IMG/VR virus record: IMGVR_UViG_3300037189_015965
Location: 47,186 to 111,185 of that record
Strand: one strand, 5' to 3'
Source: a virus
Length of the DNA: 64,000 bases
The notes beneath the pieces were generated by a model that saw only the letters and a list, made by a program, of their open reading frames with translations, was not told the DNA's origin and made no database searches. Below are positions 3,494-55,800 of the stretch, piece by piece. Each line of letters begins with the position of its first letter. Within the stretch, counting starts at the first letter, position 1. The position numbers were made by a program, and so were the translations under genes.

Positions 3494-4722
3494 TATTCTT
3501 CCTCAAATAGATTATTGTATGTAGTAATTTTATCTTCAACTTGTGCTACCTTTTTTTCTACCACAGCAATTCGTGCTTTAGCAATTTCAACATATTCTTC
3601 ACTCATTTCAATACCAATAAAATTAAAACCTTCTAACACAGCACCACGACCAGTAGAACCACTGCCAGTAAATGGGTCTAGGACTGTTCCACCAGTTGGA
3701 GTGATCATTTTGCACAAATAACGCATTAAATCAGTAGGTTTTACAGTAGGATGTGTGTTTTTACGTATTGATGCACCACGTTGATATGCATTATCCGCAT
3801 CCTTTTTACGACCATCATTGGTCTTGCCACCTTCAAAATCATCTAAACCATCATTGCGGTCTGTATTATTTGCCTTCGCACAATAAAAAAACTTTTCCCA
3901 TTCTGTTTCTATGCTACCATCATGGATAAAGTTTGCTGGCCAACGACCTAATGGATTATCAACAAGTTCCGCTTTTGCTTCACTATCTGTTGTCCAAATA
4001 CCACCTCGTGGTGTAACCCACTTTTTTGCACCTTCTCCAACTCGTGATGCATCAATATTCAATGCACCGACACCCCATTGCAATACATTATCTGCAATAG
4101 TTTTTTCACTTATTGGCTTACGTGCAACACAAATTGGTTCATGTGATGGTTTAAGTGCTGTCCCCCAACCTTGCCACTTTTTTGCTTCTGGGGTTGCTGG
4201 TTCATCATAAATGATTCGTTCTGAGGTAGTTTCACTGGCATCATCTTTAATAATACCACCACTACGTGCGCCGCCGCTCCATACTCTACCACCAACAGTT
4301 CTTTCAGCACCAGCAGCATTGTCAATTGCCTTGCTTATATCATGATTCTTTGGAAATCCTGTTCCATAAACCCACATAATCTGGTCACGTATTTCAAAAC
4401 CAGCCAATCTAATTGCTGTGACACCTAAATCATAAGTTCTTGAACCAAAGAATGATAACATATGACCGCCTGGTTTAAGAACACGCAAACATTCACGCCA
4501 TACACTTGGTCCTGGAACAAAACTGTCCCAACTTTTACCCATAAAACCCTTGCCAGTATGTTCATAGTCATCACCATTTAACCAGTGACGAAGAACTTCT
4601 GTCATATCTGGTTCAACACTTAAACCATAAGGTGGATCAGTCACAATGCTATCAATGCTATTGTCGGGTAGAGTTTTGAGTTGTTCACGGCAGTCACCGT
4701 GCAGTATCTTTACATCAGCCAT
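3493..4722 (-). CDS. DNA methyltransferase, beta class (DPPY motif)
   Basis: A 409-residue DNA methyltransferase with DPPYGL at residues 29-34 and LDPFTGSGSTG near residue 350, the motif order of beta-class N6-adenine (or N4-cytosine) enzymes. The C-terminal FIGIEMSEEYVEIAKARI closes the AdoMet fold. It is first in a minus-strand run followed by the SPPY methyltransferase, the hot-dog protein and pstS. The start ATGGCTGATG has no clear ribosome-binding site; the region upstream holds AGTATAAAG, a possible -10. It is a tandem paralogue of the next gene with probably different specificity. Confidence 0.93.
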   Translation of the reverse strand: MADVKILHGDCREQLKTLPDNSIDSIVTDPPYGLSVEPDMTEVLRHWLNGDDYEHTGKGFMGKSWDSFVPGPSVWRECLRVLKPGGHMLSFFGSRTYDLGVTAIRLAGFEIRDQIMWVYGTGFPKNHDISKAIDNAAGAERTVGGRVWSGGARSGGIIKDDASETTSERIIYDEPATPEAKKWQGWGTALKPSHEPICVARKPISEKTIADNVLQWGVGALNIDASRVGEGAKKWVTPRGGIWTTDSEAKAELVDNPLGRWPANFIHDGSIETEWEKFFYCAKANNTDRNDGLDDFEGGKTNDGRKKDADNAYQRGASIRKNTHPTVKPTDLMRYLCKMITPTGGTVLDPFTGSGSTGRGAVLEGFNFIGIEMSEEYVEIAKARIAVVEKKVAQVEDKITTYNNLFEEE

Positions 4723-4765
4723 AATTTACTTTATACTTTTAATCCAATAAAGTCAAGAACTTTCA

Positions 4766-4773
4766 TATAAATA
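4766..4773 (+). promoter_or_regulatory. T4-type late promoter TATAAATA
   Basis: An exact match to the T4 late promoter octamer, 19 nt before the ATG at 4793. An AGAGGATT ribosome-binding site lies between them. It would drive the small virion proteins and the long tail fibre. Confidence 0.75.
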
Positions 4774-4792
4774 ACTGCAGAGGATTTAGAAG

Positions 4793-5089
4793 ATGCCATC
4801 AGCAACCATTATTACAGCAAATAATAGCACAAGTGGTCAAACACCTGCTATATCAAGCACAAGAGCAAAAGTTACTGCAAATGCCCACGTTCACTATCAA
4901 GTAGGTGCAAATCCAGTAGCATATGCTGGTAACTGCGATGTAATTCCTGCTGGAACTACAAGATTTATTAATATGGAAGGTCTTAATAATAAACTTGCGT
5001 TCATTACTGCAACTGGCACCGCAGAAGTAACCGTTGTAACAGTAGGTTATGTAGCAAGTAGTGCAATCCCACAAGTACAAAGTACGTAA
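4793..5089 (+). CDS. Small putative virion protein
   Basis: A 98-residue protein of low complexity rich in Thr, Ala and Val, with the strand-like segments AHVHYQVGANPVAYAGNCDV and AEVTVVTVGYVA. No signal peptide or known motif is visible. It is the first gene behind an exact late promoter and precedes the tail-fibre gene, so a structural or decoration role is inferred. The ATG follows AGAGGATTTAGAAG. Confidence 0.8.
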   Translation: MPSATIITANNSTSGQTPAISSTRAKVTANAHVHYQVGANPVAYAGNCDVIPAGTTRFINMEGLNNKLAFITATGTAEVTVVTVGYVASSAIPQVQST

Positions 5090-47237: not shown

Positions 47238-47660
47238 ATGGGACAGTTAGTATTTGCACCAATTAGCATTGGCGATTTGTGGGATAAGATTACTATTCTT
47301 AACATTAAGTTAGAAGAATATGGTAAGGTAGATAACGAAACTAATCGCATTAAGATTGAATATGTCAACAAAGAATTGGCAGAACTTATGAAGATTATTA
47401 ATGATCTTGAACAGCCAAGTGAGCCAGTTGATGATATTGTCAAGAATCTTAAAGCAGTAAATCATATGATTTGGCGACATGAAGACGTTGTAAGAACATA
47501 TGGTTCCGATTTGAAACCATATGACAGTGAATTTATCAAGTTAGTCACTGATGTCCACCAAGGTAACAAAGACCGTTGCCAATACAAATTAGATATCAAC
47601 AAACTATACAATAGCGATATTGTAGAAACAAAATCATATATCAACGAGGGATTAAAATGA
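47238..47660 (+). CDS. DUF6165-like protein
   Basis: A 140-residue helical protein. The N-terminus FAPISIGDLWDKITILNIKL and the following ELAELMKIINDLEQP match the DUF6165 pattern, a family found beside lipopolysaccharide and capsule genes. The middle YGSDLKPYDSEFIKLVTDVH and coiled-coil end (KDRCQYKLDINKLYN) are also typical. Mechanism unknown. Starts 3 nt after gmd and overlaps the next gene by 4 nt. Confidence 0.83.
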   Translation: MGQLVFAPISIGDLWDKITILNIKLEEYGKVDNETNRIKIEYVNKELAELMKIINDLEQPSEPVDDIVKNLKAVNHMIWRHEDVVRTYGSDLKPYDSEFIKLVTDVHQGNKDRCQYKLDINKLYNSDIVETKSYINEGLK

Positions 47661-55298: not shown

Positions 55299-55490
55299 AT
55301 GACAACAGACGAATTATTAGAAAAAATGTTAATTGCTATGGAAAAGATGATTGATGCACAGGATGATATGTGGGAAGAAGAAAAGTATAGTAATTATAGA
55401 CATCGCAATCAAATTCGTGAAGAGGTTTTCTTACCTGCAAAAGAAGAATTTAAAAGTTTATTGATTGACGTAATAAAAAGTGTTAAATAA
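55299..55490 (+). CDS. Small helical protein, paralogue of the 12.5-kb gene
   Basis: A 63-residue all-helical protein, MTTDELLEKMLIAMEKMIDA, aligning with the 12502-12723 gene over IDAQDDMW and the helix with IREEVFLPAKEEFKSLL. The two copies lie on opposite strands 43 kb apart. Function unknown. Ribosome-binding site GAGGATAAA. Confidence 0.78.
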   Translation: MTTDELLEKMLIAMEKMIDAQDDMWEEEKYSNYRHRNQIREEVFLPAKEEFKSLLIDVIKSVK

Positions 55491-55493
55491 TAT
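55465..55493 (+). promoter_or_regulatory. Promoter for the structured RNA
   Basis: TTGACG (55465-55470), 17-bp spacer, TAATAT (55488-55493), inside the end of the small helical gene. Transcription is predicted to start near 55500 and to end at the terminator at 55686. Confidence 0.6.
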
Positions 55494-55499
55494 TATCAG

Positions 55500-55686
55500 T
55501 TTATAAATTTATTCTATAACCACTCCTGTGAGAGTGTGTCCAACTAACGGAATACGTTTTTTATTGATCTTTTAACTAGCTTAACCCCCCAATTCAACTC
55601 GTTGGGTTGGTCTCATCATCCGATGATGGCTACTTTAAAAACCTCTGCCTCTGGTGTAACTAACATGGGCCACGCAGAGGTTTTTT
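55500..55686 (+). ncRNA. Candidate free-standing structured small RNA (about 185 nt)
   Basis: No gene occupies the 236 bases between the small helical gene and tRNA-Ala. The stretch has a promoter (55465-55493), three hairpins and a terminator. The hairpins are CACTC/GAGTG (521-536 within the 55-kb numbering, i.e. 55521-55536), CCCAA/TTGGG (55588-55606) and CATCATC/GATGATG (55614-55628). It lies directly before a tRNA, like the stable RNAs C and D in the T4 tRNA cluster. No known RNA family is recognised. Confidence 0.6.
55640..55686 (+). terminator. Rho-independent terminator of the structured RNA
   Basis: AACCTCTGC (55640-55648) and GCAGAGGTT (55674-55682) pair over 9 bp and end in TTTTTT (55681-55686). 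The loop is large (25 nt) and may fold itself through TGG/CCA. Confidence 0.8.
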
Positions 55687-55687
55687 A

Positions 55688-55716
55688 TTGACAAGTATAA
55701 TATATGAATATATATT
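55688..55716 (+). promoter_or_regulatory. Promoter of tRNA-Ala
   Basis: TTGACA (55688-55693) abuts the terminator T run; TATATT (55711-55716) follows after 17 bp. The tRNA begins 11 nt after the -10. Confidence 0.72.
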
Positions 55717-55726
55717 ATTATCCTGT

Positions 55727-55800
55727 GGGGAATTAGGCTAGTGGAAAACCGCCGCCTTTGCAAGGCGGATTCATCAGTTCGACTCTGATATTCTCCACCA
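55727..55800 (+). tRNA. tRNA-Ala (anticodon TGC)
   Basis: The acceptor stem GGGGAAT pairs with ATTCTCC and contains the G3-U70 wobble, the identity element of tRNA-Ala. The anticodon stem CCGCC/GGCGG carries the loop TTTGCAA, giving anticodon TGC. The T arm ATCAG-TTCGACT-CTGAT is canonical, and the discriminator A and CCA are encoded. The D stem has a weak pair. Phage genes here use many GCA codons, which this tRNA reads. Confidence 0.93.

Follow-up and report, generated by a model that had tools for sequence, protein, structure and literature searches.

Since T4, phages have been known to encode small RNAs next to their tRNAs, and we know of none with a known role. Among bacterial small RNAs that act in trans, those exposing a C-rich seed combine a conserved single-stranded segment, flanking hairpins and an intrinsic terminator. 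GOLLD (RF02032) is a phage RNA of over 800 nt encoded near tRNAs. In T4, RNAC and RNAD (species 1 and 2 stable RNAs), both annotated in AF158101, lie beside the tRNAs, on the same strand and within the tRNA region; their role is unknown, and at the time of review functional characterisation had not been achieved for any trans-acting small regulatory RNA of T4 (PMC3014915). The late transcription units of T4 (gp55, TATAAATA) carry an 8-bp box whose first base lies at -13, and the late promoters of phage Aeh1 have a/gC at -13/-12 (PMC2988020).

The locus and its place among described RNAs

The window analysed here, the whole stretch of 64,000 nt, derives from a large freshwater bacterial virus related to T4. 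It lies within a 111-kb virus record, and the identical stretch is also found within a 338-kb contig, the phage's own contig; the source phage encodes a T4-type terminase and a contractile-tail sheath. Public phage records held no close nucleotide relative of the stretch, and no annotated phage record was similar to it. About 94% of the window is coding, and the gene-free stretch reported in a preliminary description of this DNA is real, extending from the end of the upstream ORF at 55490 to the start of tRNA-Ala (TGC; 55727–55800, plus strand, Rfam match). The upstream ORF of 63 aa (55299–55490, plus strand), whose end is overlapped by the late box described below, matched nothing in Pfam or PHROG. 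Most relatives have in its place a DUF3563-like gene (L008:4557-4739 and equivalents; PF12086, best E 1.1e-5, 25.7 bits against a cut-off of 26.9). We take this gene, with its match just under the Pfam cut-off, as a hint of, rather than an identification of, a host among the Betaproteobacteria.

Within the gap we predict an RNA of 192 nt (55495–55686, plus strand), delimited by its predicted +1 and the end of the terminator U run and supported by covariation and by the match of covariance model R1 to 55573–55685 (65 bits). The Rfam scan that the preliminary description had proposed as a check left this RNA outside every catalogued family at the gathering threshold: all 4227 families run against the window returned only tRNA, the best other match reaching 17.1 bits where 60 were needed, and nine relatives gave only tRNA and GOLLD. 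The RNA resembles RNAC and RNAD in being a small RNA that adjoins a phage tRNA in a T4-related phage, but it has its own predicted late promoter and terminator, whereas the T4 RNAs sit within the tRNA region. Run with filters off over T4 69500–73500, model R1 gave nothing convincing (best 8.5 bits, E 0.55), so that the parallel previously drawn with the T4 stable RNAs holds as an analogy of position and fails as homology. Because it has no Rfam match, no similar annotated phage record and no convincing R1 match in T4, the RNA counts as a new family of a known kind, the phage small RNAs near tRNAs. In its predicted layout it is also like the bacterial small RNAs with a C-rich seed.

GOLLD, although likewise encoded near tRNAs, is far longer than 192 nt and folds differently, and its covariance model found no match in the window or in the 338-kb contig. 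In one relative, L030, GOLLD lies between the small RNA and tRNA-Ala (L030:3935-4866; RF02032 221.7 bits over 4372-4834), and has a sigma70-like promoter of its own, a terminator and an embedded tRNA-like match (4439-4507); there the two RNAs are separate genes, side by side. A GOLLD remnant was rejected as the identity of the small RNA, given this coexistence and the lack of any GOLLD match at the source-phage RNA. A hammerhead ribozyme was rejected as well: Rfam gave no hammerhead match at the RNA, and the CUGANGA/GAA core is absent, L003 and L009 carrying CUGACGAG and the source phage CUGUGAGAG; all three keep a plain CACUC/GAGUG hairpin.

A fold conserved among relatives

Relatives were gathered by protein searches with two neighbouring genes, which yielded about 84 loci. 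Some 17 distinct loci contain the RNA core, in which UAACUARCUUACCCCC is followed by two hairpins, the first of 9 bp and with a UUCG-type loop, and by a terminator. The RNA measures 192 nt in the source phage against 120–136 nt in most relatives, and each contig holds at most one copy, the additional weak matches corresponding to the reverse strand of the terminator.

All elements of the RNA lie on the plus strand. In the computed fold, the 5' domain (55495–55568) is closed by the helix AUCAGU/AUUGAU (55495–55500/55563–55568) and contains an inner helix (55510–55515/55549–55554) and an apical hairpin (55521–55525/55532–55536). The closing helix reads AUCAGU/ACUGAU in L003 and AAUAGUU/AACUAUU in L009, and the remaining relatives have a different 5' hairpin at this position. 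An unpaired segment follows, UAACUAGCUUAACCCC (55573–55588), which is almost unchanged in 15 sequences while the flanking helices vary. Hairpin A (55589–55610) has 9 bp and a CUCG loop, replaced by UUCG in most relatives; hairpin B (55613–55629) contains the inverted repeat CATCATC/GATGATG already noted in the preliminary description, which we located at 55614–55628. The Rho-independent terminator, also noted there, is present, belongs to the RNA itself and is common to all RNA-bearing relatives: its 12-bp stem AAAAACCTCTGC/GCAGAGGTTTTT (55637–55685) has perfect arms and is followed by a U run ending at 55686. Its 25-nt loop caused the terminator scan to overlook it. A short peptide was discarded as the product, since the sole in-frame ORFs begin in hairpin B and cross the terminator, and the peptide is not conserved.

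Folding of 55500–55692 gave a z-score of -2.77, with 1 of 200 shuffles equally stable. Covariation among relatives is much stronger evidence than this single-sequence fold. In a consensus fold of 28 pairs built from 15 sequences, 97.9% of cells are paired, against 40–55% in controls with a slid structure, and both partners are changed in nine of the 28 pairs, compared with 2.7 for shuffles and no more than 2 for slid structures, although most of these changes separate the source phage and L003 from the rest and so represent few events rather than many. Hairpin A contributes most clearly (two-sided changes in five of its nine pairs, with pairing in 100% of cells). Between the source phage and L008, it shares only 7 of 18 stem letters, and yet all nine pairs hold, five of them changed on both sides, whereas the 16-nt unpaired segment is identical except for one inserted A. 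In hairpin B, 95% of cells are paired and two pairs are changed on both sides, and the terminator shows compensatory changes close to its tip. The preliminary description had named loss of structure in relatives as grounds for abandoning the RNA; instead, the fold is kept while the letters change, which argues for a real RNA rather than chance inverted repeats. The comparative evidence thus supports the earlier proposal that the structured RNA beside tRNA-Ala is a free-standing gene with a separate promoter and terminator.

The RNA occurs in only one phage clade and is dispensable. It is absent from L006, L017 and L026, and L004 and L005 keep the terminator without the RNA body. L009 combines the source-phage 5' domain with the 3' core found in the other relatives, which indicates that the two halves recombine. 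Two unrelated upstream genes precede the RNA among relatives, and it is followed by tRNA-Ala, by an HNH-type gene region (L095/L103) or by GOLLD (L030); since both flanks vary, the RNA is not tied to one neighbour. A degenerate-pattern search for distant homologues in viral and genome collections brought no new members; L135, L136 and L140, considered as such homologues, lay within coding-like sequence and obtained no score.

The predicted late promoter

The preliminary description had assigned the RNA a sigma70 promoter, TTGACG-17-TAATAT (9/12). This motif is in the sequence, yet it is weak, of a kind that often arises by chance in this region (24 sigma70-like matches against 13.8 expected), and unsupported in relatives; a sigma70 promoter for the RNA was rejected with 15 of 17 loci within background. 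The promoter is instead most likely a T4-type phage late box, GTTAAATA, at 55482–55489 (plus strand, -13 to -6). At this position, nearly all other RNA-bearing relatives show GCTAAATA or ACTAAATA, and L018 reads TAAAAA. Of the two relatives that lack the RNA body, L005 has the box degraded to TAAAGG and L004 retains it.

The hexamer TAAATA behaves as a promoter element across the genome. The 338-kb contig contains 193 copies, against 541–841 for each of the 14 other hexamers made of the same letters. For 106 of the 193 copies (55%), a same-strand gene start follows within 60 nt, compared with about 5–14% for those other hexamers. Both its rarity and its bias towards gene starts are repeated in the 131-kb L028 phage contig, an RNA-bearing relative. 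The consensus TATAAATA, from which the source-phage box differs, occurs five times in the window, every copy intergenic. A search with T4 gp55 located a late sigma homologue in the 338-kb contig (phrog_12791, 'sigma factor for late transcription', E 1.3e-78). In its 8-bp late box, its spacing and its late sigma homologue, the locus is like a T4 late transcription unit; it is unlike one in that the box reads GTTAAATA and the predicted product is a non-coding RNA instead of an mRNA.

In several 5' domains that are unrelated, the +1 predicted 5 nt past the box falls exactly where the 5' helix begins, with AUCAGU in the source phage and L003, AUAGG in one group and GGGA in another; in L009 it falls one base before the helix. 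As a TAA stop codon lies within or over the box, TAAATA is likelier there by chance, and part of this agreement could be coincidental. The RNA start is likely near 55495. The late box, the late sigma factor, the TAAATA statistics and the +1 at the start of the helix together point to a late, free-standing RNA gene.

Other TAAATA boxes may have further uses. In the 338-kb contig, 22 starts have TAAATA 5 or 6 nt ahead of the ATG, which would place the predicted +1 at or beside the A of the start codon. These starts, which include 24399, 31428, 34521, 37946 and 39526 of the window and that of the terminase gene, are likely to be those of leaderless late mRNAs. A second peak of TAAATA-to-start distances, at 15–21 nt, resembles ordinary leaders. 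Twelve orphan TAAATA boxes may mark further non-coding late transcripts; one of them, at G001:C1:103235 in the phage's own contig, stands directly before a tRNA-like stretch with no gene start.

Possible roles of the RNA

The reading we favour, with a probability of roughly 0.55, is that of a small non-coding RNA gene with a late gp55-type promoter and its own terminator, whose product most likely acts in trans through the exposed segment. The promoter would start the RNA late in infection, transcription would end at the intrinsic terminator, separately from the tRNA-Ala unit, and the hairpins at the 5' end and at the 3' terminator should stabilise the product. The C-rich segment, held open beside two hairpins of fixed pairing and free sequence, would then base-pair with some partner inside the infected host cell or be bound by it. 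Phage translation starts searched as targets of this segment, in the window and among the 375 genes of the phage's own contig, paired no better with it than with shuffled motifs, and the conserved target pairing expected of a trans-acting base-pairing small RNA was not found among them. The best phage target, the gene at 47238 (AGGGGUUAA), was rejected, its site not being kept in L156, which lies on the same contig as the RNA-bearing L008. Since phage starts, tRNA-Ala and an antiterminator are all unsupported across relatives, the partner is more likely in the host, or a protein. More tentatively, the RNA could represent a new family of late-promoter-driven trans-acting RNAs of T4-related phages, in which UAACUARCUUACCCCC would act on a host RNA or protein and serve the end of infection.

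For RNAs of this kind, the locus offers a predicted promoter whose class implies late expression, a compact core kept among relatives and a clean split between free and fixed sequence; together with natural losses, as in L004 and L005, these features make their role directly testable. With its predicted promoter, it also suggests that non-coding RNA can be transcribed from late promoters of the T4 type.

We consider it unlikely that the structure is instead a 3' UTR, that is, a stable terminus of the mRNA from the upstream operon that protects this mRNA from exonucleases and is perhaps later cut free. The RNA does begin 4 to 50 nt past the upstream stop codon in every relative, most relatives have no sigma70 promoter ahead of it, and the 5' domain travels with the type of upstream gene. 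However, the upstream genes of the two groups are unrelated, a protective UTR has no need of an invariant unpaired segment, and the late box puts the predicted start at the first base of the helix. More doubtful still is a protein-binding or scaffold RNA, in which a protein of the phage or the host would recognise the segment and hairpins, for example with the RNA acting as sponge of a translation repressor. An invariant unpaired sequence beside hairpins of free sequence suits recognition by a protein as well as it suits base pairing, and AACUARC occurs three times in the source-phage RNA, but these repeats are absent from the shorter RNAs of the relatives and no candidate protein was found.

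Antisense control of tRNA-Ala, with the late RNA pairing to the 5' end and D arm of the tRNA, is very improbable. The pairing spans 14 bp in the source phage (-20.8 kcal/mol), equalled in 43 of 20,000 shuffles, a p value that is optimistic since the pairing was found after looking, and it recurs in L003, L008 and L029. It is nevertheless lost with other tRNA-Ala types, nine of ten other relatives doing no better than p of about 0.05; changes in the tRNA are not matched by changes in the segment; and 46 of 25,464 random 18-mers of the window pair equally well. Least probable is a role as attenuator or riboswitch for the downstream tRNA-Ala, in which the C-rich segment would contribute to an antiterminator, for although a structured RNA does precede an intrinsic terminator and CCCC could pair with the terminator GGGG in most relatives, this would give only about 5 bp against the 10–12 bp of the terminator and is not preserved in the source phage (GAGG), a strong tRNA promoter sits after the terminator, and genes other than tRNA-Ala can follow the RNA.

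That tRNA promoter, of sigma70 type (TTGACA-17-TATATT, 55688–55716, plus strand), bears out the separate tRNA-Ala promoter reported earlier; it is strong in all 20 loci tested, one of them with TTGACT. Although tRNA-Ala is syntenic in most relatives, several quite different tRNA-Ala sequences occupy the site, at least five of them (all TGC) among close relatives (L008, L011, L014, L018, L022 and others). HNH- or GIY-YIG-like genes are also inserted beside this position in relatives, and the varied tRNA-Ala sequences and these insertions together point to a hot spot of exchange.
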